Both the position numbers and the translations under genes were made by a program. The notes beneath the pieces were generated by a model that was given only the letters and a program-made list of their open reading frames with translations, did not search any database and was not told where the DNA came from. 64,000 nucleotides of DNA. Origin: Antedon mediterranea. Taxonomy: Eukaryota > Echinodermata > Crinoidea > Comatulida > Antedonidae. Of this stretch, positions 2,576 to 57,222 are shown in pieces. Position 1 is the stretch's first letter. The number at the start of each line of letters is the position of its first letter. The stretch lies in contig NC_092673.1 in assembly GCF_964355755.1 (NCBI RefSeq), positions 35,039,648 to 35,103,647 of the forward strand, read 5' to 3'.

Positions 2576-4536
2576 TTAATTTTCTGCAACTGCAACTTTT
2601 TATAACTGCATATATATCTCATATATCTCATATTTAAAAAAATAGGATTCTTAATTAAGTAATGAGTCTGGGATTTAATAATTCGACCCCATCCTAAATA
2701 TGGAGTTGGATCACAGTAAGTTTCCAATCCAAAGTACATACATAGAAAATGTAATGTTGGCGCCGTCAAAATACTTCCACCATACATGTAGGCACAGCAA
2801 GTCTACTTCATTGGCTTTTCTGATGTCTTTTTAAATTTTGGACCAAACAGTTCTTGCTTCGAATAGAATGCATTCCCCTGTTTCTTTGCAAGTGCAGAGC
2901 ATTACAAAGATGTTGCAAATTTGCTCCTTAAGATGTTTTCTTTAAGTACCAATTATTCCACTATTTTTTGCTTCTTCTGTCTTAAAACGCAATCGCTTTT
3001 TTTAATTATGGCAAAGTAAGATATTTAATAGATCCCCATCTGCATTCAAAGTTTCTATTCCATTTTTCTGACATTTTTTGTCAAGGAAGTTGAATACTGT
3101 CTTGTCGAAAAATAAAATACTGTAATTAGTAGTGGCAAGTTTGAAAATTACTGTATTACCTTAACAACCCCTTTTTGGATTCCGTTGATGTGTATCTTTT
3201 AACTGATGGTTCTTCATCCTAGTTAACACTAGGATGAAGTGTCCTTGTTATATGCTCATTGAATCTTGGAAACAGCATTCAAAAGATAAACATTATATAA
3301 AACATCATAAAAAGTTGTTGTCTCATAAATGATCGACACCAAACAGATGCAATGAAAACTACAGTATGACATTTATCATTTTCATTTCAATTGAGATGAG
3401 TTTGTGGGAATGATGGGTTTGAATAGCCTGACCCACAATCAATCGCCTCATTACAATATTTTTTTTATTCCTTTACCAATTTAAAGAGATAAAGTTCTAA
3501 AAGATGTAGTTTTAGAAAACACAAAACAAGATGTGCGCTTGAGTACAAATCAGTTTCGGAAATACAGTTGATGATCACCTTTCATACGGTTCTGTAGAAT
3601 ATCTATTTTCATAAGATTTTGTAAATGGAAACTTAATAATAAATTTCAATGGTTTTTACATATATATCTACTCGTAATGCACATAGGCTGTCTAAACCCA
3701 ACCGCTAAGGAGATACAGGGCTTCAAAATGGTATTTTGAATTTATGCTAATTGACCCTCTTGAAGTCTGATTTTGGTGAACTTAGGATATCATGTTCATT
3801 TCAACAGGAAATTGTTAGAAAATTGTTTTCCTGCAGTTTCTACATTTTTTAGCATGGGATAATGCCATTTAAACAGTTATAACATAATATATGACGTCAC
3901 AACTACCTTATGACGTCATATTTACGTCATATGGTAATTTAAATGTGCTAATTGGGAAGTTTAATGTCACATTTATATCTACTCGCAATGCACTTTGGTG
4001 GTCTAAAACCACCATTAAGGAGATATAGGGCTTCAAAATGATATAGTAAATAGCGGCCATTTTTAATTTATGCTAATTAACACACTTCCTGACGCCCGAT
4101 TTTGGTAAACTTTGGAAATTATGTTCATTTCAACAAGGAGAATGTTAGGAAACTTGTTTTTCTGCAGTTTCTAAATTGTTCGCATAGTATAATGTCATTT
4201 AAGCATTTATAACATAATTTATGACGTCACAACTACCATATGACGTCATAGGTACGTCCTATGGAAATTTAAATATGCCAGTTAGAATGTTTAATATCAC
4301 ATTTATATCTACTTGTAATGCATATAGGTGGTCTAAATCCAACCGTTAAGGAGATATGGGGCTTTAAAATAGCAAATGGCGGCCATTTTGAATTTATGCT
4401 AATTAACCCACTTCCCGATGTCCGATTTTGGTAAACTTTGGATATGATGTTCATGTTCACCATATCAACCAAATAAAACAAAAAAAAATTCTGTTGCAAT
4501 TTGTTCTAGGTTCAACCATATTTTTACTGGACTACC

Positions 4537-5173
4537 AAGTTTAATGGCAGTTAACTGTAATATTATGATAGCCAAGTTTAACGGCGGTTAACTGTAATAT
4601 TATTTCATGTTGCTTTAAAAAGAACGATACCACTCTCTCCTTCATATGAATTGTTTAAAATAATCTTTGTTAGGCTTATCTTTCGTATTGATATTATTAA
4701 AGTGGTCAAGGCAAGGGTGCCACAAACCATAGCCATAAAACGGCATAGGTTCAAGTCTCTTTGACCATAGGACAAGTGTTTTGGAAGGATATACAAATGT
4801 GGCAATTTTCAGAAGAGTAGAGGGAACTTTCCCGGTGTCCTGTTTCAGTTCGGTCCTGTCATTATGGACAGAAGAATTAATGATGTGTTTACATAAATAT
4901 TGTATGTGTCGTCCACACCTGTGCACAATTCAGCCAAGTTAGGTTGCAAGACACAGCTCAGTCCCCAACATGTATTTAATATTGGATCAGATTAATGTAA
5001 AATTATTAAATTATTTGTTTTATCAATTCAGAATGTCCAGTTATTATCACAATTTATTTCACCAAACACTGGACATATCTACGGTCAGCATATAACAAAG
5101 TTATGTAGACGGCAACAGAAGAGAATTTCTTATGAAATAAAAAGATCTAGACGAATGGGTAGGTATAGAATGC
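4537..5173. other. Intergenic, nothing recognised
   Basis: Short minus-strand frames at 4605-4926 show no known motif and no splice context. Confidence 0.4.
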
Positions 5174-5960: not shown

Positions 5961-6170
5961 TAAATGGAAAATTGTAATGGAAGGTAAAATTAAGTTAATG
6001 AAAAAAATATTAGAACATATGCCTGGTTAAATTCTTCTTTGAGTTTATTCAGTTGGTAATTAGTCCATTTATGTAATAACTTGTATATGTTTTTATATCT
6101 GTTAGTTTGTCCATATAATTCATGCAACGGTAAAGGTTTTTATATGCCATTGCATTGTCTAAATGGTATA

Positions 6171-6425
6171 TGCAATAGTAGATTGTTTAATCTACCATTG
6201 CATGACCCAATCATGATTCATGCAATAGTAGATTGTTTAATCTACCATTGCATGACCCAATCATGATTCATGCAATAGTAGATTGTTTAATCTACCATTG
6301 CATGACCCAATCATGATTCATGCAATAGTAGATTGTTTAATCTACCATTGCATGACCCAATCATGATTCATGCAATAGTAATAGTAGATTGTTTAATCTA
6401 CCATTGCATGACCCAATAATGATTC
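6171..6425 (+). repeat. 50-bp tandem array with internal hairpin
   Basis: Five units of TGCAATAGTAGATTGTTTAA, TCTACCATTGCATGACCCAA and TCATGATTCA. TAGATT-GTTT-AATCTA inside each unit forms a small hairpin. One unit carries an extra ATAGTA. Confidence 0.92.
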
Positions 6426-6429
6426 ATTC

Positions 6430-8215
6430 AATGGTAAAGGTGTTTATCTGTTATTTATATAATGGTGCGGGTGGTAGATTTGTTTTGCCTTTGCACAAAC
6501 CAACCATTACATAAACCAATCAGTCCAGCGTATTAATATACAATGATACATTTGGTTGGATCTACTGTTGCACGACCAAGACCAAACATGCAGTGGTTGA
6601 TGTTTTTGCTGTATTTGTTTGGTTTATTTTATTAAATGAGATTTGATAGATGAGTTTTGATGGATGTTTGTGGTGGTATAGATACCGCATCCCTTAAAAG
6701 AAAAGATCTGAAAGGCTAATTTGCCTCAAACAATCCGCAATCTAGCCTTGTATATTGATTATGATGCAGTCAATAGGAGAGAGAAGAGTTACTATTTAAA
6801 CGGATTTGAACATACCATTAAAGCCCCATTTGTGTACTTTTGGGGATTTTAGTATTGGTGCAGATCCGTTGGGTGGGAGAAGCAGTCGGACATCCAGTAT
6901 TCATGCAGTTTCAATATTTTTTGTTCAAAATTCTGTGCACGTTGCACGAATCGATGAAGAAAACAATATTTTTCGTCCTCAACACTCAACGAGGAAAATT
7001 GTCATCCCTACCAAGGCCCTCTTCCCCATTCCATGATATCATCATTTAACAAAATATATTGTACTGGCAAAAAATACATAATACGATTTACATAAATGAA
7101 GAGAATTTTTCTGCTTGTTTGTATCAATAAAGTAATAAGTTATTTCTCAATGTTTGCATAAACAGTTGATTTATTAGTAAAAATAAGAAATAATGATTGA
7201 TATTACATAATAAATAAATGACATAATATTGAATACTACTACTACATAAGATTGATCACTGGGCTATTTTGACACCTGCATCGCATTAACAAATTAAAAA
7301 TAAATGATGATAATATTATGATAATGAAAACCAAATAAACTAGAGGCACGAATTAACTATGTAAAATAAATAAATATTGTAATCGGCATATTTACGCCAA
7401 TTAACTGCAATCAAGCACAGATGATTCAGTCTGACCAGGACGATAGCTAGATACACTATTTAAGGAGATCAATGCAAACATTTTAAGTCGATTATTTACC
7501 TTGAAGATTTCGATTTATTTTGGAGTGAACTATTACCAGTTATCATCTTGTTCAAACATTGTTAGCATTCTCCGCGATTGTTACCGTCAATACGCTCATT
7601 CACGGTTTAGACCAGTAATTTCCCTATTTTATTTGTTGACTAATATTATTAACACGATAGCCACTTCTGTACAAACATGTGGCCAAAGCTAATGTCATTA
7701 CCGCGCTGTTTCGTTGCTATGTCTTTCATATCATTCTTTACGTTGGATAAAAATTACCGCTTATTACGTATAGGAGACTACTTAAGACATATGTACATTA
7801 CATAAATCGCCGTTAGCCAGTCATCCGCAGTTTGTTCGTGTACTGACATACTACGGAATCTAGTGTATCTCGTTTACAAATTAAGGGTAATGAGTGAGAC
7901 ATCTTCAAAACTAATTGGTTTGTCATTTTAGTCCGGTGATACCATTCAAGCACTAGTTACAAGCGATGTAATAAGTGCACGTAATGTATTTCTTTGATCG
8001 TGGAATATTGATTTTCACTCTGTTTAACTAAATATCTTTACATTGTAAGTACAGCGGATACCGTTTGGCTTTTTATGAGGCGGTGTAACTACCAATGATT
8101 TTCTAATTTATATAACACTTGAGAGTGATGCTATGATTCTTAACGTTGCAAGGTGGTCGTAAACTTGCCTCTTTTATTTATCGTGACAGAGAAGATATGA
8201 TGGACTTGTTATAAG
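6430..8215. other. Intergenic and upstream region of the cyclase gene
   Basis: No exon is recognised. It must contain the cyclase promoter and any 5' UTR exon unless these lie further upstream. I cannot point to a TATA box or initiator with confidence. Short frames at 6806-7049 lack motifs. Confidence 0.4.
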
Positions 8216-8894
8216 ATGATGCTTCATAAATGTTCGATATGGCCAATCATAATAGTCTTGTTAAACGATATATTATTCTGTGGATCGAATGAGCTCTTAG
8301 TAGTAAATATTTTTCTACCGTGGAAGTCTACCGAAAAAGAAGCATACCCGTTTTTAATTGATCGAGTTAAGCATGTTATACCGCTTGTGGAAAGTCGAGC
8401 AGCAACCAGCCTAGGATCAGGACATCTGCAAATTAATGTACACGATTCTGCTTGCGATACGAGACAAGCCCTTGGTAAAACTGTCGAATGCTATGCAAAT
8501 TCAACCGATATCATCATAGGTCCACCGTGTACCAAGCCCTGTATGAGCGTTACCGACTTAACTAGTTATTGGAATTTACCTTCGATTTCTTGGTTTTGCG
8601 GAGACAAAATTTTATTTTCAAATAAAACTATTTACCCAACGTTCGTTCGAATCGTACCACCATTTTATAAAATCGCCATATTGACTCAAAATGTTATGAC
8701 ATTCTTCGAATGGAAAAGGGCATGTATTATCACTAAAATTGGTTCATTGTACGAGTCTTTAGCAAATGCGATCCAGGTACAAGGCTCGCAAGAAAATTCA
8801 ACCTTCGAGATCATTAGCATTGAAACGTACGCACGCGGTATTAGCCGAGCTTTAGCAAGTAAAATATTAAAGAATATCAAGACCGTTTGTACAG
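8216..8894 (+). CDS. Guanylate cyclase exon 1: signal peptide and N-terminal ligand-binding domain
   Basis: It encodes residues 1-226 plus one base. A hydrophobic leader ends near FCGS. The ANF-receptor pattern follows: [11 protein letters not shown], then [13 protein letters not shown], then [14 protein letters not shown] and NKT sequons suggest glycosylation outside the cell. The donor is GTAAGT at 8895. Reading through the donor would add 13 residues and stop, giving a truncated 239-residue product. Confidence 0.93.
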
Positions 8895-11904: not shown

Positions 11905-14900
11905 CGTCAACATGATTTACAAAAAAAGTAGCCTAAAGTTTTTTTTATCTTTGCCCAATTTTTCAGTTTAGGAATGATTAGTCATAGGCCTACCATTTAA
12001 AACAGTTTTTTAACATTTTAGTCTATATGTTGTATCAAACAGTAATGTTTTATTCCGTGCAGTTATCTGGTTGATAGTTGGTGGAGTAACTATATTGTAT
12101 TAAACAGTAATGTTTTATTCCGTGCAGTTATTTGGTTGATAGTTGGTGGAGTAACTATTATATTAAACAGTAATGTTTTATTCCGTGCAGTTATCTGGTT
12201 GATAGTTGGTGGAGTAACTATATTGTATTAAACAGTAATGTTTTATTCCGTGCAGTTATTTGGTTGATAGTTGGTGGAGTAACTATATTGTATTAAACAG
12301 TAATGTTTTATTCCGTGCAGTTATTTGGTTGATAGTTGGTGGAGTAACTATTATATTAAACAGTAATGTTTTATTCCGTGCAGTTATCTGGTTGATAGTT
12401 GGTGGAGTAACTATATTGTATTAAACAGTAATGTTTTATTCCGTGCAGTTATTTGGTTGATAGTTGGTGGAGTAACTATTATATTAAACAGTAATGTTTT
12501 ATTCCGTGCAGTTATCTGGTTGATAGTTGGTGGAGTAACTATATTGTATTAAACAGTAATGTTTTATTCCGTGCAGTTATTTGGTTGATAGTTGGTGGAG
12601 TAACTATATTGTATTAAACAGTAATGTTTTATTCCGTGCAGTTATTTGGTTGATAGTTGGTGGAGTAACTATTATATTAAACAGTAATGTTTTATTCCGT
12701 GCAGTTATCTGGTTGATAGTTGGTGGAGTAACTATATTGTATTAAACAGTAATGTTTTATTCCGTGCAGTTATTTGGTTGATAGTTGGTGGAGTAACTAT
12801 TATATTAAACAGTAATGTTTTATTCCGTGCAGTTATCTGGTTGATAGTTGGTGGAGTAACTATATTGTATTAAACAGTAATGTTTTATTCCGTGCAGTTA
12901 TTTGGTTGATAGTTGGTGGAGTAACTATATTGTATTAAACAGTAATGTTTTATTCCGTGCAGTTATTTGGTTGATAGTTGGTGGAGTAACTATTATATTA
13001 AACAGTAATGTTTTATTCCGTGCAGTTATCTGGTTGATAGTTGGTGGAGTAAGTATATTGTATTAAACAGTAATGTTTTATTCCGTGCAGTTATTTGGTT
13101 GATAGTTGGTGGAGGAGTAACTATTATATTAAACAGTAATGTTTTATTCCGTGCAGTTATCTGGTTGATAGTTGGTGGAGTAACTATTATATTAAACAGT
13201 AATGTTTTATTCCGTGCAGTTATCTGGTTGATAGTTGGTGGAGTAACTATTATATTAAACAGTAATGTTTTATTCCGTGCAGTTATCTGGTTGATAGTTG
13301 GTGGAGTAACTACAAATGAGGAAGATGTCCAGATGTTTATGTTGGCGTCCAGTGATCTCGGAATGACGTCAGGAGAATTTGTATTTATTCACTTTGATCT
13401 GGTTCCCGAGTTGACAAACATGACGAAACGATGGCAGACTATCGGTCCGATATTGAATCAGAACAACGAAAGAAAAATAAGGGACGCATTCGACACATTG
13501 TTAACCATTACTTTCAAGTAAAATAATTTTTCATATTTATTTGTTATACTGTAGTTTAAAAGTAAAGACACAACCTACCCCACTCAGTACGAATGAAAAT
13601 GCTTCTTTGATGAGATTTGAACTCATGTTTACAGATCACTTACCTGGAATCATTACGTCCTATCCCCCTTCCTCCACCTATAATTTCTAAACCGTTGTCT
13701 GATAGCTTTTTGGAAGTCATTCTTTATTAATAGGCCTCTGTAACTTACAAATCTATCCTACAACACAAATCATGCACGCACCTTTTTTCCTAGTTTAAAC
13801 TAAATAGCAAATATACAATCACGAAGAAATAATATATATAATAACTTATTTCCAATGAGTAGTCAAGCAATTATGTACTAGGCATTAGCCTATTTGTATC
13901 TGCACGTTACTTAAAGGTTACCAACAGACGGTCGAATTGAGAACATGAACGACGTACAACCTCAGGCACAGGTAGTAGAAGGTCATTTATGACGGTTATT
14001 AGTTATTGAAATAATATTTTAGTACCTTATATGTGTGTAGATGATGGATGGTGATTATGACGACGTAATTACAATGATGATGATTAAGCTGACGATTTAT
14101 TATTTTCGATACAAACGCTAATGATGAAACTAAAAATGTGTAAATAATAAATACATAAACAATAATGATAATTTAATAGATTCATAGTTCAGTGTTTTAT
14201 TTAAACCACCACAGTATTAAACTGCAGATGCATTTAAATAAAATGAAAAATATAGACTTCGATATAAACAATTAAATTTAAATCTTAAATTCAAAATAGT
14301 TTATTCTGAAGACTTTGAAAGATTAGTTTCCTATTGTTTCTAAGCCGGATCGAAGCTAACTTATTATAATCAGAAACAATCGTAACCAACAACGTTATAG
14401 ATTCTTTCATTTAGGCCTAAATTGCTATTTGACAACGTTTAAACATTTTAGACAGTTATTGTACTTGCGTCACTGTTTAATAATCACTGATTGTTATATG
14501 ATTAATATACAATGTTTACCACCTCCACTACATGATAATGGCACACTCATGAAAGGTTAAAGAAAAAAAAATTACAGAAAATATAGTTTTATCCGGTTAT
14601 GAATGCGGTTGGCTGAAAATCAGTAAATCTTTACTTTCATTTTTGAAAGCGCAGTTTTTAATAGTATAGGAGTAGTTCGATCTATCAAACTTCAGGTGAC
14701 AAAAAAATGTGATGTGCCCATATATGGACATGATGATGTCATACCACTACCATATGTGGGCATATCACTACCATATGTGGGCATATCACTACCATATTTG
14801 GGCACATTTTTTGTTAAACTAGTTTGATAGTGTAGACAGACCTTTTAGTAGCATTATAAAAGTTTTCGCAACAAATGTTTTCTAACAATATGTAATCCGG

Positions 14901-17900
14901 AGTTGGCCTTTGTCTTTTTAGAATCCCAGTATTATGGCCGCTTATCTATACGATGCTGTTATACTGTATGTAAACACAGTTTCAAGTAGCTTATCGTCAC
15001 ACGATGGATACATGGTCGGCAAGTCACTCAAGACCACAGCATTTGAAGGTGTGTACTGTACAAATACTTTTTAGTTCAAAAAGGCCCAATTGTTAAGTTA
15101 TAGATAGTCCAACAAGACAATACTTTATTATATTCACATAATCTTATTTTTAATACAATTCGTAACAACAAGAATTAAACTATGCATCGCGCAATTTTCT
15201 CTATAGCCGGATCCAAATAAAAATTAAAATAACAATAAAACATTTTTATTATTCGGTTAAACCACAACATTTGAAAGTTTATACAAATACTGTTGTTTAT
15301 TTAGATCAATGAACAGGCCGAATTGTTGGCACAACAAAACAGGTACTGTGATTTACAAAATCGAAACTTATTTTTCAATACAATCCGTAAACAACAACAT
15401 TTAACTGTGCATGGCAAATACGTTTATCTCTATGGCAGGATCCAAATCAACTTAAACAAATAACAATAAAATAATTTTATTATTCGGTTAAAACCTCAAA
15501 TTTGAAGGTTTATACCAATACTGTTGTCTAATTATCTCAACATTACAGCTATTGTATGCCCTACTGTAATTTTAAAAATCTGAACTTATTTTTTAATACA
15601 ACTATTATTAATTAACTGTACATCGAAAATTTTATAGAACCCAAATTAACAAAAAAAGTAAAAATAATATTATTCGGTTCAAATGCACAGCTTTGATAGT
15701 GTCTGTGTTACTGAAAAAGTTTAGCAGGACCTCAAGCAATACAATATGACTGTGTATTCCTTCCGTTAATTTAAGCACTTTACTTATATTTGGAACCAAA
15801 CCTGGACCGCCACTATTTCCTGTACAGCCTTGTTGCCGACGAGAGGTCCTCACAACATTTCTCCATTCGTTTCTTTTCTGTGAAATTGCTTTTATTTTTG
15901 CCAGATCCGCCACTACTTTATAGACTTATGCGATTAAATGCTTTTTAACTGTGTATTACTGACTGTCTACTCCCTGTCTTTAATTATTAACCACAAATGA
16001 ACAATTTGTACTCAACAATATGTAGAATTAAACTGTATACTCGATGATAAAAGGTCTGGTTGGCTAATCTTGTCAGTGTGCTTATCTATCAGGAACATCA
16101 GATGCAATATCAATTTGTGTTTATTGTGATTGTAATTAGAATTTTATGCGACGAACACGAAACAAATCGTTCCCTCAAGACAGTGTTCAGTTATAAGAAT
16201 AACATATTAGTATCAAAACTACTTATATATGTTGTAATGCTGTAAAAATTAATACTTTTGGCTGTAAAATCATAATTGTTAACTTCGTCTATTCGTCCGA
16301 AATTGTTCTATATTTTCATTATCAAAAACGTTTTCTCCATATACTCTTTTGGTATTTCATTGGATTAATTTATTTAACGGCCTAAATCTTTCTTTCAACG
16401 ATGCTTTACAATATACAGTACTGTATTTAGAGTCTATTTATATTTATGCCAAATTTCATTTTTTCATTTCATTTATTCCACATTTATTTAGTCATCAATT
16501 ACAGTACATCATAATTACAGTACAACTGAAAACAGGGATCCTGCATAAAAAAGCTGTAGCTTCGTTTTTTTGTAGGACCCTTTTACATAAGAACAAGTAT
16601 ATAGAACTTAAATAAACAAAGGTGTTGTTAATCAGCATATAGTGATAAAAAGTATTTTTTGACCTGTTTTTTTATACATTTATTTTGTTTATTTAAGATA
16701 ACCGGTTTATTACCACCATTACAAGTGAATTCTTTCCACAATTTTGGTCCATATATGTGTATAAACTGTTGACTGCAAGTTAGTCTTGTGAAGGGAATTT
16801 CGAATTTCGATATGTAACTATATCGTTTTAAGAATGAAATTTTATTGAATATTATGCATCGGTTTGTAATTCATGAATACGTTCATAACTGAAAATGAGA
16901 AGAAATTACAATAAAGATGGGTGATTCCTACGAAAGAAGAAAAAGTATTTAGAATAGGCTATAAGAACATTTATTATTTATTATTACAGGAATGACCGGG
17001 CATGTTGCGTTTGATGATGACGGTGATCGGATCTCCGACTACGTATTGATGGATTTTCAGGTAAGCTACAGCAATTATCAGTCTTTTAGTTGTAACCATC
17101 CAACACGTTACCTCAGTCGGAACATTTAAGTAGGCCTAGTAAGCAAGATAACAAAATCTAATATGTAGACATATAAATATAATGTAGACATATACAAATC
17201 TGTGTGTTAACAACGCGAGACACTATACTAGTATTTTTCCACAATTGTAATCATTTTGTGTAAGTATTATGAAGGTCTTTTTTTGTTTGCAAGACCTTTT
17301 TTCGTGTGAATTAGAAAGGATGATTTTCTTTTACCTATAACGTAATCTTATTTTTTCCACATAAGGATTGCTAACAACCGGCTACATTTTGAGGTGGTTC
17401 AGGGTTTTTTGGGGGTGTGAATTATTTTCATATTTAAAGAGAACATTTATCAATATATTTGAATAAATTTACTATTCAAATTGCAGTAGGGAATAAGAAT
17501 GATTTTACAGGGAAAAAAAGAGTTGTGGACTCTGTATAATGTACCGGTACTGTATAATGACAATAATACTGTATATGACAAATCCCAACCTTACCTGATA
17601 CAGTCAACATGCACGTGAAATGTATTATGATACTAAACAACAGTATTGCCATATGCGAAACTTAAATGAATAGGTAATCTGTTTATATGGTTTACACAAA
17701 TATGTATTTTTAAGGGTGTTACACACTATAACGATAACGATCGACGATAAATATATACATAGGTATCCTATAATAGTTTGTTCGATTTATTTTATTTGTG
17801 TGTAAAAACACATATTTATCAACTTCTCGTCGATCGTTATCGTCCATAATATAATTGAGTCTTTTATTCTATTTCAATCACTTTCCATACAGGATGCTTA

Positions 17901-18712
17901 TCGATTTGCACCGGTAGCGACGTTTTTTTATTTGAATAAAAGCGTCACAAGTTTCGGCACAATATTATGGCCGGGAAACATAAAACCAGGCGACACAGTT
18001 ATAACAAAATCGGGTAAGTATTATTATAGCGCTATGGTTTATGTGTAATGATCATTAAACTTTATAATCATAGTGTGCCACATACTAATATCTCATAGAC
18101 TCCCCCAAAGATACACAGATGTTGATAAAAACATTTGTCCGCCTAGCTACTACTATCAACATTAATATTTTGTATGCACATGTACATAAATGCATACATT
18201 TGTTTTAGTTTGTACGAGTACTATACGTACCAAAATACATTGTTATAACATTATTCTATACATGCTGTATTATCAGCATTTTACGCATGCATCAAGTGTT
18301 TTTGGCTGATACTAATAATTTAAAGTGGTAGACCTACACGTGAACATTTTTTTTAGTGATAGCACTTTAAATACTGTAGGCCTATTATTAGTTTTAAAAA
18401 ATGGTTATAATATGGTTTTCTTTAACAGATTGGTGGATAATCTTGGTAGTAGCTGTTATAGGTGTAGCTGGAATAGTTATCATAATGGCAGTCCTATGGT
18501 TAAGGTAGTGACATTATCTTTAACTTCTGATTTTTAATGTGTGTTTCTTTTTTTCTTCTGTTTGTCGGTTTCTTGAAATTAGGAGTCAAAATCGGATCAA
18601 ACGAAACGTGACCGAAATCATTTGAATTTAAATTATAAACCAATTATTTAGAGAAAACTATTTGTATTGAAAATATTATTGTAAATCAAAAAGTTTTGGC
18701 ATAGACAGACGC

Positions 18713-18744
<32 letters not shown>

Positions 18745-21700
18745 AATACGCTATACCTCTATTATATATTAGCAGAGAAGATTTGTCAATTTTAATCGTT
18801 ACTTTAAATTTCCGCTAAAGGAATAGTGACTTAGTTATTTTAATCAGAAAATAAATAATTATTTATTCGTATAAACTACCTCTTGAAACAATGAAGACAA
18901 TACTGCTACCTTAAATTAAATAACGTAATCTTTCAATTTGTTCACAGCGCGAAATATCGTAAGTATATCAACAGGAAAGATTGGCTGATAAAGTTTGACG
19001 ATTTGATACCATTATATCATCACAATTTACTAGCGGTAAGATTCAACGCATTAAGGCCAATTTACACTGACGAGCCGAGATACATATTCTACGTGGGACA
19101 AGCTACGCGTTTTTCTGCTTACCGTTACCACTCGTCTGTGTAAATTGGCATCCGATAGCATGGCCAACATAAGTGTGACCTTATGTTGTTTTGTTCTCGC
19201 GTTGTTGTGTGTAAATGGTCATAAAAAATAGGCGCGTCCGTATACTGTAATTTAATTGGTTGAAAGTTGTTTGCGCTGAGCCAAATTGATCAAATTAAAA
19301 TATGTATATATTTTTATTCAATGTGTTTTTAAAAAATAACTTATATGTTCAATACGATCATTTTTTGTTTAATTTATTTTTTTGTCGAGTATTTTTGCGG
19401 TTATGAAGTAAACCTTATACATTTACAGACAACCTGTTTGCCGTCAACCGTGCAGCTTCATCAGACGTCATCCGCTGGCCAGGCCGAGGCATCGTTGTCA
19501 TTGGATGTTGGTGATTTAGCGGCTGAGTTACGTCATGGTACTCAAACGGTAGCTATTTATAAAGCGCAATACGTAGCGGTTTTGACAGGCCAGCTGAAAA
19601 ACTTTCATCTGAATAAGGTCACAAAGAAAGAACTGCAAGCGGTAATAATATGTTAATCATAATTAGATTGTTCTGAATAATATGACGACTAACATTATGA
19701 TGATGATAATGATGATGATATTAATAAAGATCAGTAGAGTATCCAGAGTGATGATGATGATGATATTAATGAAGATCAGTAGAGTATCTAGGATGATGAT
19801 GAAGATATTAATACAGATCAGTAGAGTATCTAGGATGATAATGAAGATATTAATACAGATCAGTAGAGTATCTAGGATGATGATGAAGATATTAATACAG
19901 ATCAGTAGAGTATCTAGGATGATGATGAAGATATTAATACAGATCAGTAGAGTATCTAGGATGATGATGAAGATATTAATACAGATCAGTAGAGTATCTA
20001 GGATGATGATGAAGATATTAATACAGATCAGTAGAGTATCTAGGATGATGATGAAGATATTAATACAGATCAGTAGAGTATCTAGGATGATGATGAAGAT
20101 ATTAATACAGATCAGTAGAGTATCTAGGATGATGATGAAGATATTAATACAGATCAGTAGAGTATCTAGGATGATGATGAAGATATTAATACAGATCAGT
20201 AGAGTATCTAGGATGATGATGAAGATATTAATACAGATCAGTAGAGTATCTAGGATGATGATGAAGATATTAATACAGATCAGTAGAGTATCTAGGATGA
20301 TGATGAAGATATTAATACAGATCAGTAGAGTATCCAGAATGATTCGGGAGCTTTCTATTTCCGATGACCAAACTATGTCAGTGTCACGTTAATTCATTGT
20401 GCGCATGCGGAGATATTAGGACGTTTTTCCTCACTGACGGTTTCTACTGAAGGTCTAGGCGACGACGACGATACATCGATTGACCTGATCGCAAATCAAA
20501 AGATCCGCAATGTCTGCGTACTGCGTCCAGAATTCTACATTAAGATCATGGCGGCGATTGCACGATCATTCAGTGTCGGTGACGTCACGAAATATGTACT
20601 GCCTATAAAGTAATAAAGTACCTTAGTCACTACTCCTATAACGTCCTATTCAAATAACACTACTCCTACTCATTCTAATGCCAACTAATGCTAACGCAAT
20701 CATTGGAATCGTATAGGCCTAATCATATAGGCCTAATCATATCAGAAATGCGAACCTCTGTAATATTAATAGCTCTATATTTCATGAACCGCCCGTTCAA
20801 TATACGGTAACAACCATAATGCAAGTTTTCCATCACCAGGTAAGGGCATCAATTCGATATTGGAGTGACACGAGGAATTTGAGTCGCATATACGTACGCG
20901 CGATTTAATTGGTTGCACAATCGGCAAAAAAAGTTTGTTTAAATGTATCCACAGAAATCTGACGTTATTCGCGCGAAATAAGGTGAAAACACCGCCTAAC
21001 AAATACATATCTTAACGTTTTTTTGCAGTTACGCTGGCTGGTTCACGACAACATAAACCGCTTCTTAGGAATATGCTTCCCTCCTAAAGACGATGAAATG
21101 CTTTTATACTTAACCGAACATTGCTCAAAAGGAACGCTTCGTGTTGTGTTAGATAATGACGATATCAAGCTTGATTCTACGTTCAAAATGTCTTTTATAA
21201 ACGACTTAACTAGAGTAAGAAATGTATGGTAAAACGCTAAGACTTATCTACAGATAGTAATGTATGTTGAAATGCTAAGATACATTAGCAAGCTATAATT
21301 GTTTGTCTTCCGTTTTCATTATCAATAATTCATATAATTGCATCAAATTTCTACGAATGTATTTTTGCAATTAGGTCTCAATATGAATTTTACACTTAAG
21401 CCTAACCTCTGTATCTTGTAGTTAGGCCTCGCCTCACTTTGGATATTGGATTTAAGCCTCCTTTGGTTTTGCAATTAGGCCTATACATTCAATTATAGGC
21501 CACAGAATACATCTAGTAATGCCATGTAGATTAAGAAATCTGTTTAGTGTATTTAAATTTGACGTTTTATTTTTATTTAATCGTCTGTTTTTGTTATAGT
21601 TTGTTATCCCTGAGTAGGCCTACAGGGTACAGACAGTTATACAAAAAATATGGGCATCGCCTACTAGATTTTAGATTTAAGCCTCGCTCTGATATTGCAA

Positions 21701-24700
21701 TAGGCCTACACTCTGTCTCCTGCATTTAACTACTTTGTGTATTTTGTCCATGCTTTATAGGGTCTTCAATACATTCATAACTCAGAGATTAAGTCACATG
21801 GTTTATTAACGTCAAGTCTGTGTGTAATTGATAGTCGATGGGTGTTGAAGATTACGGGAATTGGAACGATTGCACATCAAACATACAAAGACAATTTATA
21901 TAAATCCGAACCATCGTACAGATTTTCCAGTAAATATATTTTTTTAAGTTGTTATTGCATTTTTGGAATTCATGTTTTATTTATTTTGTATTTCTAATAT
22001 ATTTTCTTTATCTAGAGAAAACTTACAAACTCAACAAAAAGGCCTACTTTAAACAAATTAAAAATACTAAATATTTTTTAAATACGTTTAACAATAATAG
22101 CGCATTTTTTTTAATGTAAAGATTGGTTTGCAACGCAACGACCGAAGCGCAACGTACGTGAGTTGACCAATCACAAAAGACCAATCGCGTCGTGATAGGC
22201 CAAATTATGTCCAGCTTTAAGCGTGGTAACCACTAGAGGTGCAACCAATGACGTAGACGCATGTTTTTGTTTTGTTGCATATTATCATTGCAGCCAAAAC
22301 TGAATTACAGAATATTTACATCAACATTTATAAAACAAACTAAATATAGGCCTACACAATACATGCATATAACAAGTTTAGCAATGACAAGCGACAGTTA
22401 GAATCATCCATCGCGTGTGATTGGTCAGATGGCTTTCGTTGCGCTTACGTCATTGCGTCCTAGTGGAAACCACGCATTACTCCCACAATTACCAGTTAAC
22501 TATTTGAAAAAATATCTTTTGGAATAATACATTTAATTTAACAGTGTCAATTTATCAAGAAGTCATGACTGCTCAGGATGATACTAGAATCACTCATCAC
22601 TAAAAACACCTAACCTAGCTAACCCCTGATGCTTTATTTGTAATAATTAGTTATTTTATTTCCCGTAGGAATGGTGTGGACAGCACCCGAGCTGCTGCGA
22701 CAAGAAATCCCCATCAAAGGCAGTCAGAAAGGAGACATCTACTCATTAGCAATAATATTATATGAAATAGTTTCACAAAACAATCCTTATGCAATATATG
22801 AAAAATCACCGAAAGGTACAGTTCACATTGCACGCTATTTGCTATTAAAGCGTGGTTCCCACTAGCGACGCAACGCAAGGACGTAACGCAACGCAAGTGA
22901 ATTGACCAATCACAAGCGATGGCTTATTCGCTTGTGATTGCCAACTGTCTATAACTTCGCTTGTCATTGGTTAAAACGCTTGCGTTGCATTTACGTCCTT
23001 GCGTTACGTTCTAGTGGGAACCAAGCTTAAAGGTTGAACCATTCAGTTATCTCTTTCTCGTTCTTCCTAATTTCCAGTTCAGTTCCCGGTTAAGATAAAG
23101 TAACAATTACCGTATATCACTAGTCATCATGTTATGGTGGCGATGTTAAATGTCGGCAAATAATTACAAAAATAGACATATGACGTCAGAGAGCTGATCA
23201 TCATTTTTTCATACGGTATCATACATATAATATCACTCATAAACAAGTAGAAATTGTTTTTATCTAAATTTAAACGAAATTTATTTATTTAAAACGTGTG
23301 TTCATTTGTCACGTAGGCTAATCGCTGAAATAAAACGGTCTTTATTTCAGAGGTGATACGTCTGGTGATGAAGCGAGAGGAGCCTCCATTTCGTCCAATG
23401 AAACAAAGTCATTTTTCTGAAATAGCCAGTGATGGAACTCTAAACGGCTTACCCACTGAACTACTAGATTTCGTCAAACAAGGATGGGAAGAGCTTCCCG
23501 AAGACAGACCAGATATACACTCATTTCGTCAGAAACTCAGGATCGTCAGGAAAGGCCGGTAAATCATGTGCTTGTGAAATTATGGTATAAAGGAAGGAAG
23601 GTAGTTTTCTGAAGGATAGTTATGCGTCCCTGGGGTAGTGGCACAAGGAGTAGTTGCACAGGGGGTAGTTGCACAGGGAGTAGTTGCACAGGGTGTAGTT
23701 GCACAGGGTGTAGTTGCACAGGGTGTAGTTGCACAGGGGTAGTTATCTATGAATTTTAAAATATATTTACACATTTTAGCAAAGTTTATTTTCATACTTT
23801 AATTTGTTAATTTTTTTAATTTTTTTATTTATTTTTTTTTTTTTTTTACAAATGCTAAGTTTGGTTTATTTTAGGTCTTTCATATTATTAATTATTTTAT
23901 CATTGTAAACAACACTTAACTGTTACATGGAGGTTACTTCTTAAAATTTATATTCATTATAAATCTCAAAACATAAATCATGATTGTTCTAAGATAAAAA
24001 TGTTAATAAAATACAAACATAAATAATTAAAAAAAATAGTACCACTGTAAATTAATTACTAACCACGATTAACTTTCATAATAATACAGTATTAACAAGA
24101 ACATAAATAATAAAATAATAATAAATAATATAAAAGATTATAAATTTAATAATATCCTCAATAATAGCCTAATAAAATTTCTTTAAACAATAAGATATTA
24201 ATAATGTTGATAATAATAATAATAAATAAATATACTTATATAGGCCTATACTCCATCAAAAGTTAAGTGTTGTACTTTTTCACTATTGTATAATTCATTT
24301 TCTTTTCTTTTTCTTTAAACTTATGAACGCACCGTCATAAAACGTGTGCCGCTGTTCTAAAAGCGTCTGTTCAATAAAGTTATTATTATTATTATACCTA
24401 TTTTATTTGCTTTTTTAAATATTGTTTAGAAAAGAAAGTATAATGGACACAATGCTGGCGAAAATGGAAAAGTACACGGACAACCTGGAGAAGGTTGTAT
24501 TGGATAGAACAGGACAACTACTAGAAGAAAAGAAGAAAACAGATGAATTACTTTACAGAATGCTGCCACCGTACGTACTTTACTTCAGTCTGTGTTTTTC
24601 ACGGGGCGCCGTTTGGAACATTGTTTAAAGGGCTTCTTTTGTTAACGAAATGGGAATATTTCAAACGGCACCCGGTACATAAATCAGACCCTTTATTTTT

Positions 24701-27700
24701 GTGCCGGCAAATCTGAACAGCAAATCAAGCGTGCGGTACGGTGCAGAAATTGATTTTTTAATTTTTATTGTTCGCACTAAAATAAAAAGAAGTTATTTTA
24801 TCAACAGAATTATAAATAGTTTATCAAATATGAATGATTTGGTATTGTATAGGCCTAAACTGAATATCCTTTATGTTGTAGTTCTGTTGCAGACTCACTG
24901 AAGCGTGGCAATGTTGTAGAAGGCGAGTTTTATCAAAATGTGACCATTTACTTTAGTGATATTGTCGGATTTACACAAATATCCGCCGAAAGTAATCCTC
25001 TTGAAGTCATCGATTTCTTGAACGATCTTTACACTTGTTTTGATGCAATAATTGGGAAGTGTGATGTATACAAGGTTGGTAGGATTTGATACAACATAAC
25101 ACGAAAACACAAGAACAAAACGGGATATGACCGGTTGGGCCGCCGACAAGTTGAGCCGCCGGTGATTTCTATGAAACGCCCAGTGCATGCGTCTTTTACG
25201 AAATTTCGCGTAGTGATTAGGATGGTGTCCTAGTACATAAGTTCATGGTCTTGGTTTATTGTGTCATGAAAATAAATAATATATAATTACATAGGCCTAT
25301 TACAATTAACACAGCAAAGGAAAGTAGTAATATTTAATAATTTAATTGTTTTTAATCTTTCGAGGAAAAAATTCAGTGCACTCATAATTTTTCTCGCGTG
25401 TAGGTGGCCTACCACATAAAGTCACGTTGTCTCTCAGGACTAATTATTAATAGAGTATTAACATTTTTCGAATGAGGTTAAGTAAATATTATTTTTTATT
25501 TACGAATCTTTTAATATCATATTTTATTGAATTTTAAAATGTTAATACACAAAATATTTTACTAAAAAACGTGATTTTATGTAATTATTTTACCGAAAAA
25601 TGGAGTAGGCCTACTTCATACAACTGCCGACTGAATGAGGGGCAACATGTTTACGTCATTTTTGGCTAAAAACGATCACTTTCGGTGATGTTTTATATTT
25701 TGGAATCTACAAGCCAGAGTTTCATAATTATTTCTTTAATTATAATATTTAATAATATATATACTAAAAACCATGATATATAAACGTTTGAATGTACATC
25801 GTTATCACTAACATAAATTGAACGAGCATCGGCGAAAGTTAGCATTTGGCGTTCCATAGAAAATAACGTTTTTCTGGCGGCGGCTCAACTTGTCGGCGGC
25901 TCAACTTGGCCTAATCCAATAAAACATAGGCCTACTAGGTGTTCGTTTTCGCGCGCACGAGAACGGGAAAACGGGAGGCTGCAAATTACGTATTCGATCG
26001 TCAGCATGTGATTGCACTTGAATCTACACTATTTTACGGTTTTAAGTAACTGTGATAATTAAATGATTTAATATTTATAGCAAAATATCAATCAATTTGT
26101 ATGAATCTAAATAAAAGGCCTTTAGTCAACTTTATTTTTGTTGCATTATACTAATACAATAGTAATATAAAAGTAAATAGACGATTTGTTATTGTACTTA
26201 ATGAATGTATTGTAAAATAGGTTGAAACAATAGGGGATGCGTACATGGTAGCAAGCGGTCTTCCTAAGAGAAATGGCGACAGACACGCGAGTGAAATAGC
26301 TAATATGGCACTTAATATTCTGGACAGGGTGAAGACATTTATAATTCGACATATGCCAGAAAGACAATTGGAAACACGAATAGGGATCAACTCTGGTAAG
26401 TGTAAAGAAAGCCGATTTTCGGTAGGCCTACTGTATCATAGGTTATTTGGTAATACAGAAGCACATGTGTTTCGCATGTACAGCATCGCCTAGTATCGTG
26501 ACCATAACCTAACCCGTAACCTACTGTATTCTTACATGATACAGGCGCCACATGTGATACAAATGAGATGCTGTATTACCGAAATTCCTATGATACTGGG
26601 TAAACATTGTTGTATATAGAGATACAACACTGGTAATCGGGTAAAAAAAAGTATCAAGAAACCTATTTAAACAGTTATAAAATCAAGTATTAGAAAATGA
26701 GATACAGATTCTTGATATAAGTTTATTATTTTGATTAAAATGTTTCTAGGCCCTATAGTGGCGGGTGTTGTCGGATTAACGATGCCTCGATATTGTCTCT
26801 TTGGTGACACTGTTAACACAGCTTCAAGAATGGAATCAAACGGCCTACCTCAACATATACACATAAGTGAAAGCACTTACAATATTCTGAATACTATCGG
26901 AGGTTATAGAATGGATAAACGAGGTGATATCAAGATAAAGGTATGAGTTTTCTGTATATATAGTTATCACAACATGGCAGGGCAATTACTGTACTTAGTA
27001 TTGGCCGTTTGTTACGGGGCGCCATACTTAAATAAATGATAACGTATTACACTGCACCCCATATATATAACACTTTTCTATGGTCAAATAATTTATGTCC
27101 ATATACATAGATATGTTAACTTCTGCAATTCTAGAGTGTTTTCCACCCGCTGCCAATATGCGTCTATTTGTGAACACGGTGGTTATCTTATTTCGCAGTG
27201 AGTCAGGGGCGCAGCCAGTGGGGGGGTCACGGGGGTCCTGACCCCCCCTTTTTTTTAGAAAAAATAAATAAAAACATGAGACAACAATACAGATCAAATC
27301 ATCCTGGAGATACTGTGGAAGATTACTACCGAGCAGTATTACCAAATCAACTTCTTGATCATTTACAAACCGAGTTAAAAACCCGTTTTTCTGCCGATAA
27401 CAGGCCATGCTTTAAAATATTTGGCGTAGCACCCGAGTCTATCGTGAAGTGTAATGTTGAAGAAGTCTTCAAGGAACTTGAATTTGGTACGGTGATCTGC
27501 CAAGACACGAACATCTTCATTCCGAGCTTCAGTGATGGAAGCGACTGTGTAAAATTAGCGGATCCAGATGTGTTCCCGAATGTGCGTGCAAGTACTTAAG
27601 TCTTCTAATCGCGTAGGCCTATGCCCGTAACGTCTGCTGAAGCTGAGCGGAGTTTTTCGACTTTGTGGAGAACGAAAACCTGTTTGCAAAATCACATGTC

Positions 27701-29023: not shown

Positions 29024-29662
29024 ATCGATCAGCACACTTTATTCTTGATTCTGTCGTTGGAAGTGATAGGAAGGTTCAGCTTTCACACAACGTAACAACT
29101 AAATTGATCAGCAAACTTTATCCCTGGTTACGTCGTTGGAAATGATAGGAAGGTTCAGCTTTTACACAACGTAACAACTTAACTAAATCGATCAGCACAC
29201 TTTCGGTTCTGTCGTTGGAAATGATAGGAAGGTTCAGCTTTTACACACAACGTAACAGCCAAATCGATCAGCACACTTTATTCCTGGTTCTGTCGTTAGA
29301 AATGATAGGAAAGTTCAGCTTTTATACACAACGTAACAACTAAATCGATCAGCACACTTTATTCCTGGTTCTGTCGTTGGAAATGACAGGAAGGTTCAGC
29401 TGCTTTACACAACCTAACAACTAAATCGATCAGCACACTTTATCCCTGGTTCTGTCGTTGGAAATGATAGGAAGGTTCAGCTTTACACAACCTAACAACT
29501 AAATCGATCAGCACACTTTATCCCTGGTTCTGTCGTTGGAAATGATAGGAAGGTTCAGCTTTTATACACAACGTAACAACCAAATCGATCAGCACACTTT
29601 ATTCCTGATTCTGTCGTTGGTGGAAATGATAGGAAGGTTCAGCTTTTATACACAACGTAATA
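29000..29662 (+). repeat. ~80-bp tandem array starting in the last codons of the cyclase gene
   Basis: About eight units contain CACAACGTAACAACTAAATC, GATCAGCACACTTTATTC, CTGTCGTTGGAAATGATAGG and AAGGTTCAGCTTTTA. The first unit holds the gene's stop codon, so the rest should lie in the 3' UTR if transcription continues. Confidence 0.9.
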
Positions 29663-33010: not shown

Positions 33011-33193
33011 TGTTAAGTTATCCCCTCATATATAATGCACCTTTGACGTGCCATACTATCATTATTCGCGGGTCCCTTTTTGTGCTGAAACCTCGTGAGA
33101 TGATAAATTAAACACACTTTGCTCTTTAATTTCCGTAGTTTCTGTATTATTATTTCTATATATTCCCGATTCCAGGTTACAATGGATTCAACA
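33011..33193 (+). repeat. 5' LTR of the copia element
   Basis: It is a direct copy of 36556-36738 and starts at TGTTAAGTTATCCCC. It contains ATATATAA near its start as a possible TATA box and AATTAAAC near its middle (AATAAAAC in the 3' copy) as a possible polyadenylation signal. The ATG of the element's gag frame (33182-33184) lies 12 bp before the LTR end. Confidence 0.93.
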
Positions 33194-36100
33194 GGTTATG
33201 GGCCCAGCCGTTTTCAAAGATTGCTTTTTAACGGAGATGAAGAAAAATATGAACTTTGGGAAGTAAAATTTCTAGGGTACCTAAACACACTAAAACCAGC
33301 GTTAAAAAGCACGATTACGTCTACACAGCCGGAGCCAGCCACCGACGATGACAACCATAAAAATGAAAAGGCGTATTCGGAGCTGATACAATTCCTGGAC
33401 GACAAGTCATTATCGTTGATCATTAACGATGCAACTGATGACGGGAGAAAAGCTCTGTCTATTTTAAGAACCGAATATTCTAGCAAATCTAAACCAAAAG
33501 TGGTGCAACTTTACACCAAACTAACAACACTCGAAATGGGTGAGGAGGACTGCACGTCGTTCATTATCAGAGTGGAAAAGATTATCACATCATTACAAAG
33601 AGCAAAAGAAACACCTAGTGACGCACTTCTAACAGCAATGGTATTAAAAGGTTTGCCTGGAGCATACGCTCCATTTAAAATATACATAAATACACAAGAA
33701 AAAGACATATCTTTTGTAGAATTTAAAACATCCTTAAGAAAGTTCGCAGAATCAGAGAAACTAAATACACCAGAATCTAATAACGACAGAGTGATGAAAG
33801 TTGGAAACCCACAAAACTCCAGAAAATGCTACGAGTGCGGATCACCTAACCACTTGATAAAAGATTGCCCTACAAAAACCTGTAAATACCACAAGAATGC
33901 CAATCACCTTGACAAGGACTGTTTCAGAAATAAACCAAAGGACCAAATAAAGAAAGCGGAGGATGGATTTGAACATTCCTTTTTCTTTCAAGTGTCAGAA
34001 AACATAACATGTCAAGATGGTATTTTAGTAGACACTGGCTGCACCTCACATGTAGTAAATGACCGAGAGAAATTCTCCAGTTTCGATCCAACCTTTAAAA
34101 GCCTTAATCATACTATTGAACTTGCGGATGGTAGCGTAGCAAAAGGTGTTGCAGTAAAGAGAGGACATGCACACATAAACCTGATAGATGAAAACAACGA
34201 GAAAGTAGAAACTGTCTTAAAAAATTCCCTGTACATACCAACGTATCCACACAACATAATGAGCGCAAGAGCTGCAACGACAACAGGAGCAAGAGTAACC
34301 CTTAGTAAAGAAGAAAACACAATCACTAATGCTGGAAGAACATTCAAAATGAGTATTATTGACAACCTATACTACTTACCAACCACAAGTGCACCTAGAG
34401 AAGTAGATAAATTAAGCCTTGTTAAAGATTTACAATATTGGCATAGAGTCCTCCTAGGACATTGTAACTTTGACGATGTACTAAAATTAGAAAAGGTAGT
34501 GGACGGCATGGAAATCAAAGGTAGTAAAGTTAAGGAAACATGTAACATATGCACTGAAGGTAAATTTGTTAATGTAAGAAATAGAGAACCAGACAAAAGG
34601 GCAAATTGTCCATTAGCCTTAGTACATTCTGATCTGGCAGGGCCAATATCACCATTGGCTAAAGACGAATTCAAATACGCCATATCATTTACTGATGACC
34701 ATTCTGGTTTTGTTTTTGTTTACTTCCTCAGAATGAAAAGTGATGCTGCAGCAGCTACCAAACAATTTCTTTCTGACTGTGCCCCAATAGGCAAAGTTAA
34801 GTGCTTGCGAACTGATAACGGTGGTGAATATGTCAGTTCTGACTTCAAAAGCCTAATGACAGATAGAGGTATTAAACATGAGTTTTCATCTCCAAATTCA
34901 CCCCATCAAAATGGAACCGCGGAACGTAATTGGCGCACTCTTTTTGAAATGGGTAGATGTCTTTTGCTGGAATCTTCACTGCCAAAGTCCTTATGGACTT
35001 ATGCAGTAAGAGCAGCGACCTATATAAGAAACCGTTGTTTCAACCAACGCCTAAATAAGACTCCTTTTGAGACCATGACTGGCTATAAACCAAATTTGGG
35101 AAAAATGCACATTTTTGGAAAACCTTGCTACGCATACATACATAACTCAAAGAAACTAGAACCTAAGAGTAAGCGTGGTATATTTCTGGGATATGATTCA
35201 TCTAGTCCAGCATATTTAATCTATGACCCAAACACTGGCAAAGTTCAGAAATTCAGATTGATAAAAATTATATCTGACCAAACATCTAACACCAACCAAC
35301 AAACACAGACAGATGAAAGTGACGAAACAAATGTAAACTTGGAGGATAATGAGAACACAAATGAATCCCAAATTATTGAACATGAAAATACCCCAAATGT
35401 TAATAATTATGATAACTTAGAGGAAAATGACAACAATGGGGTAGATATTGATGATGCCCACAGAAGGTACCCTCAAAGGGAGAGAAAGTATCCCAATTAC
35501 CTACAGGAGTATGAGACTGAATTTGACAGTGATGATTCGATCTATCATATGTCATGTCAAAATGTTCCCTTAACATATACAGAAGCTACAAATTCCCAAT
35601 ATTCAGAAAGTTGGAAAAGGGCAATGGATGAAGAATTACAATCATTGAAAGATAATAACACCTTTAAGATAGTCACATTACCCAATGACAAACACCTCAT
35701 TGGCGGAATATGGGTATTTGCTATAAAGGAATCGGCCGAGGGTAATCACACGTACAAGGAAAGATACGTTGCCAAGGGTTTTAACCAAATAAAAGGCATA
35801 GACTATCATGAGACATTCTCGCCCACAGCCAATTTGACCTCAATTAGAACATTAATGCAAATATCTGTACAACATAACCTTATAGTCCACCAGATGGATG
35901 TGAAATCTGCATACTTAAATGCAGATATTGATACCGAAATATACTTAAGCCAACCTGAAGGTTACGAAATTAAGTCTGAAAATGGGGAAAAATTAGTATT
36001 AAAATTGAACAAGTCATTATACGGGCTTAAACAGTCAGGTCGAAATTGGAATCAGCTGCTGCACAACCACTTGAAGAGTAATGATTTTAAAAGAAACCCA

Positions 36101-36472
36101 GCAGACTACTGTGTATATACAAAACGCAACAAAGATGACTTAGTAATTGTTGTAATATGGGTTGACGATATATTAATTGCAGCCACAAATGAGAATGTAC
36201 TTAGTGATTTTAAGGCAAATATGAAAAATGAGTTTAAATGTGCTCATATTTCATGTGATAACCAAGGTGCTATAGCATTAAGCAGAAACCCAGTGCAAAG
36301 ACAAAGGTCTAAGCATACAGATATACGGTATCATTTCATAAGGGATGTCTTAAAAGATGGACAAATAGATATCCAGTATTGTCCAACAGAAGACATGGTG
36401 GCAGATATTTTAACCACACCAGCCACCAAGGTTAAACTAGAAAAATTCAAAATATTTCTATTTGGAGAATAG
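33182..36472 (+). CDS. Copia gag-pol polyprotein (1096 aa from the likely start), RT/RNase H deleted
   Basis: One open frame encodes gag, a zinc knuckle (CYECGSPNHLIKDC), an aspartic protease (VDTGCTSHV), a GAG-pre-integrase segment (YWHRVLLGHCN), an integrase with its D-D-E residues (HSDLAGPIS, RTDNGGEY, SPHQNGTAER) and a reverse transcriptase with VHQMDVKSAYLN, SLYGLKQ and the catalytic WVDD. Near 36240 the frame jumps from the RT palm (MKNEFK) straight to the RNase H end (DNQGAIALSRNP). Roughly 170-200 residues that copia proteins normally have, including most RNase H catalytic residues, are absent. The frame stays open, so the loss was in frame. The frame extends upstream to 33119, but the ATG at 33182 is the likely start. 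Autonomous transposition is unlikely. Confidence 0.93.
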   Translation: MDSTGYGPSRFQRLLFNGDEEKYELWEVKFLGYLNTLKPALKSTITSTQPEPATDDDNHKNEKAYSELIQFLDDKSLSLIINDATDDGRKALSILRTEYSSKSKPKVVQLYTKLTTLEMGEEDCTSFIIRVEKIITSLQRAKETPSDALLTAMVLKGLPGAYAPFKIYINTQEKDISFVEFKTSLRKFAESEKLNTPESNNDRVMKVGNPQNSRKCYECGSPNHLIKDCPTKTCKYHKNANHLDKDCFRNKPKDQIKKAEDGFEHSFFFQVSENITCQDGILVDTGCTSHVVNDREKFSSFDPTFKSLNHTIELADGSVAKGVAVKRGHAHINLIDENNEKVETVLKNSLYIPTYPHNIMSARAATTTGARVTLSKEENTITNAGRTFKMSIIDNLYYLPTTSAPREVDKLSLVKDLQYWHRVLLGHCNFDDVLKLEKVVDGMEIKGSKVKETCNICTEGKFVNVRNREPDKRANCPLALVHSDLAGPISPLAKDEFKYAISFTDDHSGFVFVYFLRMKSDAAAATKQFLSDCAPIGKVKCLRTDNGGEYVSSDFKSLMTDRGIKHEFSSPNSPHQNGTAERNWRTLFEMGRCLLLESSLPKSLWTYAVRAATYIRNRCFNQRLNKTPFETMTGYKPNLGKMHIFGKPCYAYIHNSKKLEPKSKRGIFLGYDSSSPAYLIYDPNTGKVQKFRLIKIISDQTSNTNQQTQTDESDETNVNLEDNENTNESQIIEHENTPNVNNYDNLEENDNNGVDIDDAHRRYPQRERKYPNYLQEYETEFDSDDSIYHMSCQNVPLTYTEATNSQYSESWKRAMDEELQSLKDNNTFKIVTLPNDKHLIGGIWVFAIKESAEGNHTYKERYVAKGFNQIKGIDYHETFSPTANLTSIRTLMQISVQHNLIVHQMDVKSAYLNADIDTEIYLSQPEGYEIKSENGEKLVLKLNKSLYGLKQSGRNWNQLLHNHLKSNDFKRNPADYCVYTKRNKDDLVIVVIWVDDILIAATNENVLSDFKANMKNEFKCAHISCDNQGAIALSRNPVQRQRSKHTDIRYHFIRDVLKDGQIDIQYCPTEDMVADILTTPATKVKLEKFKIFLFGE
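33194..33209 (+). promoter_or_regulatory. Primer-binding site of the copia element
   Basis: GGTTATGGGCCCAGCC directly abuts the 5' LTR. The same core follows the LTR of Drosophila copia, where an internal part of initiator-Met tRNA is the primer. Here the site is also codons 5-10 of the gag frame. Confidence 0.75.
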
Positions 36473-40816: not shown

Positions 40817-41180
40817 ACAATGGTCATGCAGTACACACCAATCGTCATGCAGTACACACCAATGGTCATGCAGTACACACCAATGGTCATGCAGTACACA
40901 CCAATGGTCATGCAGTACACACCAATCGTCGTTCACATTTATCATGCAGTACACACCAATGGTCATGCAGTACACACCAATCGTCATGCAGTACACACCA
41001 ATGGTCATGCAGTACACACCAATCGTCATGCAGTACACACCAAACATCATGCAGTACACACCAATCGTCATGCAGTACACACCAAACATCATGCAGTACA
41101 CACCAATGGTCATGCAGTACACACCAATTGTCATGCAGTACACACCAATCGTCATGCAGTACACACCAATCGTCATGCAG
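40817..41180 (+). repeat. 21-bp minisatellite, left arm of foldback element
   Basis: About 17 units of CATGCAGTACACACCAATSGT vary mainly at the last bases (ATCGT, ATGGT, ATTGT, ACATC). The array is broken once by TTCACATTTAT near 40930. Confidence 0.9.
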
Positions 41181-57059: not shown

Positions 57060-57222
57060 CACATTTTCAGCAACTTATAAAGATGTATGCTGTACATCAA
57101 TATACCTGATTGAGCCTTCTTTGCATGTGAATGGTAACCTTAGTGCAACTTATCAAGATGTACGCTGTACATCAAGATACCTGAGCCTTCTTTGCATGTG
57201 AATGGTAACCTTAGTGCTACAA
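57060..57222 (+). repeat. Tandem duplication, ~75 bp
   Basis: GATGTACGCTGTACATCAAG, CCTTCTTTGCATGTGAATGG and TAACCTTAGTGC occur twice in a row. Confidence 0.85.

Follow-up and report, generated by a model that had tools for sequence, protein, structure and literature searches.

The 64,000-nucleotide stretch of the Antedon mediterranea genome analysed here (the window; C4:35039648-35103647 in a genome of 354 Mb) contains a minisatellite built from an intron-exon junction of a predicted receptor guanylate cyclase gene. With array length taken as assembled, acceptor-anchored decomposition resolves positions 12030-13312 into 20 head-to-tail copies of the junction, 63-66 bp each, so that 19 extra units precede the authentic start of exon 2; an earlier reading of the bare sequence (the original prediction) had given the same number of extra acceptors and, at slightly different limits, 12022-13305, the same array. 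On the same contig, at a distance of 229 kb, a second copy of the gene has 4 acceptors where the window has 20; the array lengths compared here are those of gene copies and not of known alleles. Neither this second, four-unit copy nor the contrast in reading frame between the two arrays described below had been part of the prediction.

The array is highly ordered. Tandem Repeats Finder (TRF) reports arrays that begin at 12026-12033 and end at 13312, with periods of 128, 193 and 321; the 321-bp period has 4.0 copies with 98% matches, and its score of 2463 rules out a chance repeat. The units follow the order (ABACB)x3, then A', B', D, D and the true exon 2, just as had been predicted, and all three 321-bp blocks are letter-for-letter identical. 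Each unit consists of 26 intronic bases, ending in TTTTATTCCGTGCAG, an exonic part and a spacer of 7-9 bases, the last intronic base falling at 12062, 12127, 12190 and so on to 13219 and 13282. The claim that every unit contains the whole acceptor holds: in a column comparison, positions -26 to +4 are invariant in 20/20 units, all of which close their intronic part with GTGCAG at an equal matrix score. The claim of about 23 exonic bases per unit does not hold, the exonic part being 30 bases long (TTATCTGG...GTAACTA), and 33 in unit 17. Position +5 is T in half of the units (10/20) and C in the other 10/20, a synonymous difference within an Ile codon. The intron-exon boundary itself was placed from the frame, the splice signals and the paralogues, and the units are too alike to inform on selection for intact acceptors. 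The window has a GC content of 32.7% and no N.

Judged by its protein domains, the host gene is a receptor guanylate cyclase, as the original prediction had it, and the Pfam matches follow the order typical of such receptors: ANF-receptor, kinase-homology, cyclase. The ANF_receptor family (PF01094) is matched by exon 1 (679 nt, with the expected donor GTAAGT at 8895) at an expect value (E) of 1.6e-22 and, at profile positions 185-240, by exon 2 at E 0.00026 and 20.6 bits, below the 25.4 set as curated cut-off; the donor that closes exon 2, at 13518, is also as expected. Five joined exon peptides match PF07714 (PK_Tyr_Ser-Thr) at E 5e-24 as a kinase-like region, and Guanylate_cyc (PF00211) is matched in three exons; four gene pieces, two of the five kinase-region peptides among them, matched no Pfam family when scanned singly, and the juxtamembrane label of a downstream exon was assigned by eye. 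A degenerate pseudogene is not supported, since both gene copies have open frames in exons 1 and 2 and in the nine other exon peptides placed by tblastn.

Derived state and proposed origin

In two paralogues from the same genome, L016 and L017, the intron at roughly the matching place is of phase 1, as in the window gene, and has a single acceptor. A relict on another contig (L004, C5:11781800-11783800), in which intron 1, the first part of exon 2 and also intron 2 can be traced across large deletions, likewise has one junction, its acceptor AG lost. Because the two paralogues and the relict all carry a single junction there, the multi-acceptor array is, by this comparison of sequences, the derived state. 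In the 600 bases before the acceptors of L016 and L017 there is no TRF array (score at least 80) and no repeated 14-mer, and the array as a typical trait of the receptor family is rejected for these two genes. Their exon 2 was identified by eye from the list of open frames, and tblastn with the window's exon 2 did not match these places; both fall in the matching part of the ANF_receptor profile, one at positions 180-262 (E 3.1e-07, over the cut-off) and one at 179-211 (E 0.014, below it), and in a three-row alignment the window's exon 2 is 27% identical to that of L016. The count of two paralogues is out of three fetched: L018, in which exon 2 is not recognisable, was left out, as was a weak match at C4:26484854 (E 0.0087).

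As to how the array arose, we infer that the first step was a tandem duplication of the intron 1/exon 2 junction, probably at a 3-base microhomology: CTA is common to exon 2 (GTAACTA) and the intron (GTCTA), and these would be the breakpoints. The spacer CTATATTGTATTAAACAG matches the intron before the array, CTATATGTTGTATCAAACAG, except for two lost bases and one change, and may have been derived from it by just these losses and this change after the duplication at CTA. Subsequent growth would have been by unequal exchange or slippage, single units being added first and 321-bp blocks later. The twin genes have 4 and 20 units, which shows that the time since a recent duplication is enough for array length to change. 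The units of the twin array differ in type from those of the window. Its first unit carries TTTTATATTCC, while the other three and all 20 window units carry TTTTATTCC; at the site of this difference the C5 relict carries TTTTTATATTTC, and for this reason the edge unit of the twin array seems to keep the older form.

Relation to known splice-boundary arrays

Arrays of this kind are already known, as mirages in amphioxus and as single cases in human CBS. Mirages are minisatellite-like tandem copies across an intron-exon boundary, described for Adh3, for the globins BflGb6 and BflGb9 and for TnC, with similar imperfect repeats in PGBD5 (PMC3087553, PMC3902484); the first description, for Adh3, dates from 2002 (via PMC3087553). 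Many of their units carry splice signals, and regular splicing is reported to proceed undisturbed in their presence (PMC3087553, PMC3902484). The window array has the same make-up: it is a minisatellite-like tandem repeat whose units (20/20) combine intron and exon sequence from a real boundary and keep the splice signals. Closest to it is BflGb6, in which the 3' end of an intron and the 5' part of exon 2 are repeated in 6 or 3 copies, depending on the haplotype (PMC3087553); the window array, too, repeats the acceptor side and the start of exon 2, although the BflGb6 units measure 150-160 bp and ours 63-66 bp. The edges of the BflGb6 cluster are reported to be spared from homogenisation (PMC3087553), which the apparently older form of the twin's edge unit resembles. 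Unlike the amphioxus mirages, the arrays described here have 20 and 4 units, grew block-wise and sit in a receptor guanylate cyclase. The genome has the gene content of an animal, and the window's GC of 32.7% does not suggest amphioxus (about 41%). Searches of the genome gave no match for COX1, with 8 of 14 controls recovered, none for the GFP family PF01353, in a scan that recovered no control, and none for mir-2, while let-7 was found at 62.7 bits; if mir-2 is confined to protostomes, this result weakly suggests a deuterostome.

The human cases illustrate two further aspects. In CBS 844ins68 the intron 7/exon 8 junction is duplicated, and splicing shows a strong preference for the distal one of the two neighbouring sites (PMC2630376, which words the duplicated site as 'splice donor'); we regard this as a direct precedent for distal-site choice, albeit with one extra junction copy where the window has 19. 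The 31-bp variable number of tandem repeats (VNTR) of the same gene, c.1444_1467+7(16_21), has 16-21 tandem copies and varies between people (PMC2630376). Like the window array it spans an exon-intron boundary, by its notation, which also places the repeat on the donor side (the exon end and 7 intronic bases), whereas the window array repeats the acceptor side. Among the arrays compared (BflGb6 with 3-6 units, the CBS VNTR with 16-21), 20 units are at the high end. The original prediction knew of no described array of this kind in a cyclase gene. Among the 8 of 132 papers listed by our one literature search, none showed such an array in a cyclase gene either, and the window array may be the first such case; the design as such, however, has been described before, in amphioxus (PMC3087553, PMC3902484) and in human CBS (PMC2630376). 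The novelty appears to lie in the gene that hosts the array, in its high number of units, in the pair of 20 and 4 units within one genome and in the asymmetry of the frames.

Acceptor choice and competing explanations

That asymmetry is a matter of unit length. Joined to exon 1, window acceptors 17, 18, 19 and 20 keep the frame open and would give +64, +42, +21 and 0 residues, and from acceptors 1-16 (16/20) a stop follows no more than about 35 codons past the junction; all acceptors of the twin (4/4) are open, with +63, +42, +21 and 0 residues. The contrast traces back to unit lengths of 63 as against 65 bp. Measured to the donor at 13518, exon 2 is 235-427 nt long from acceptors 17-20 and 1455 nt from the first. 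The array acceptors are not weak sites: their score of 5.95 bits, against -2.4 to 7.4 for the nine other acceptors of the gene, tops 8/9 of these in a leave-one-out comparison, with a matrix built from nine sites only.

We consider it probable that the array is a splice-boundary minisatellite, or mirage, which is near neutral and is skipped in favour of the last acceptors. For the most part, the spliceosome would splice exon 1 to the final acceptor or to one of the final few, since exon 2 would be recognised together with its own donor and is short from acceptors 17-20 only; the final acceptor, moreover, would directly adjoin the whole of exon 2. Acceptors 1-16, if used, would yield truncated messages, and we expect mostly normal message with some leakage. 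Functionally, the array is most likely near neutral. Minisatellites seem to grow readily in this genome, since variation in array length is common in the region (see below), and so one of them would have captured a splice site.

Several points weigh against this explanation. Both the use of the last acceptors and neutrality are what we infer rather than observe; if the first good AG after the branch point were to win, the messages would run into stops; and units of this type could serve as cryptic sites (PMC3087553). In addition, 3 of the 204 other AGs in intron 1 outscore the array acceptors under the nine-site matrix, and local strength alone therefore does not decide which acceptor is chosen. 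Twenty acceptors identical from -26 to +4, together with a twin that has four, amount to a natural experiment on 3' splice site choice, in which proximity to the upstream donor, exon length and exon sequence can be set against each other.

The equality of the acceptors from -26 to +4 and the split in outcome, with stops after 16/20 acceptors in the window and an open frame after 4/4 in the twin, would also fit a splicing rheostat, in which decoy acceptors divert transcripts to early-stop messages (window) or to receptors with 21-63 additional residues (twin) and array length tunes output or receptor form. We find this unlikely. In the published mirages regular splicing reportedly remains intact (PMC3087553, PMC3902484), the insert would duplicate a hydrophobic segment inside the ligand-binding domain, other arrays of the region vary in length too, and the frame pattern follows from units of 63 and 65 bp and can be chance. 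Still less probable is a bolder version in which array length separates two young receptor duplicates, the 20-unit gene giving a share of poison messages and the 4-unit gene receptors whose ligand-binding domain has gained 0, 1, 2 or 3 modules of 21 residues.

It is equally doubtful that the array length or the second copy arose in the assembly, by misjoining of two haplotypes. The second copy was located by a sequence search, in which C4:34823363-34823683 matches 321 bases around the window's exon 2 at 99% identity; its stretch from exon 1 to exon 2 lies at C4:34820010-34823680, with the authentic exon 2 starting at 34823446. It is collinear with window positions 4595-44628, with large indels and one stretch occurring twice, and again from 56813 to 62218, up to the end of the compared piece. 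In 11 clean blocks the copies differ at 176 of 21,192 aligned bases, or 0.83% substitutions, a low estimate because the blocks were picked by hand and those rich in indels or arrays left out. Divergence of this order also occurs between alleles in many invertebrates, and it is this allele-like level that would speak for an artefact. The coding parts are similarly close: 5/679 bases and 3 residues differ in exon 1, 1/235 bases and no residue in exon 2, and 7/9 further exon peptides are identical, the other 2/9 having one residue change each. Against an artefact, there is no N across 183.9 kb around both copies, the left edge of the homology at window position 4595 is free of gaps, and the flanks to the left of it (18.5 kb and 24.6 kb) have no common block of at least 400 bases at >90% identity. 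A partial third copy (L014, C4:34878495-34881167), with kinase and cyclase exons K4, K5 and C1-C3 and no stops in the five peptides compared, points the same way, as does the presence in both copies of an array made of different unit types. The second copy is thus taken as a true segmental duplication.

Finally, it is very improbable that the array is an intermediate in the birth of an intron or exon, in which an acceptor and the donor-like GTAACT of the units would yield micro-exons or a new intron: the model has been proposed for amphioxus globins (PMC3087553), and unit 16 does have GA|GTAAGT 23 bases past its acceptor, resembling the donor of a kinase exon (AGA|GTAAGA), yet GTAAGT occurs in 1/20 units only and a 23-nt micro-exon would break the frame, because exon 1 leaves one base over.

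Feature coordinates and other repeats

Features of the array and its host gene in the window
Feature	Position	Strand	Evidence
Minisatellite, 20 intron-exon junction units (19 extra and the authentic one)	12030..13312	+	TRF, unit decomposition, column conservation
Units 1-15: three 321-bp blocks of identical sequence, each A-B-A-C-B; use of their acceptors would lead to early stops	12037..12999	+	unit decomposition, frame reading
Unit 16 (A'), alone in having GTAAGT (donor-like, preceded by 23 exonic bases); acceptor leads to early stop	13000..13064	+	
Units 17-19 (B', D, D; 66, 63, 63 bp); acceptors would add 64, 42, 21 residues in frame	13065..13256	+	
Exon 1, coding for the signal region and the beginning of the ANF-receptor ligand-binding domain (predicted)	8216..8894	+	open frame; PF01094 E 1.6e-22
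Authentic exon 2, 235 nt, continues ANF-receptor domain (predicted); donor at 13518	13283..13517	+	open frame; PF01094; same-phase intron in two paralogues
Downstream exons: juxtamembrane, kinase-homology and cyclase domains (predicted)	17893..26943	+	tblastn, Pfam

Several other arrays differ in length between the window and the twin copy. A 50-bp array (window 6170-6436) has 5.2 units as against 19.1 in the twin (L006, L003; C4:34817156-34818111), a 42-bp array 15.1 as against about 8.1 (with a 45-bp consensus in the twin), and an AT repeat 28 as against 11; at the sites that correspond to the twin's 37-bp and 18-bp arrays, of 27.2 and 13.4 units, TRF reported none in the window. Others are equal in both copies, namely those of 81 bp (8.1/8.1), 38 bp (2.1/2.1) and 15 bp (7.4/7.4). 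At a 62-bp array at 61713, the compared piece of the twin ends inside the array. The open frame at 28778-29023, which matches no Pfam family, runs into the 81-bp array (29006-29660, 8.1 units): the array starts within the final codons of the frame, whose stop codon lies in the first unit.

Elsewhere in the window, two 21-bp arrays at 40818-41181 and 41513-41891, about 330 bp apart, have consensus sequences that are near reverse complements of each other, and the palindrome TAGGCCTA occurs 37 times in the 64 kb as against 0.59 predicted from base composition. Positions 2600-4560 hold an interspersed repeat with at least 86 genomic matches, several of them 95-97% identical. A single open frame of 1121 residues at 33107-36472 resembles a Copia-type retroelement polyprotein.
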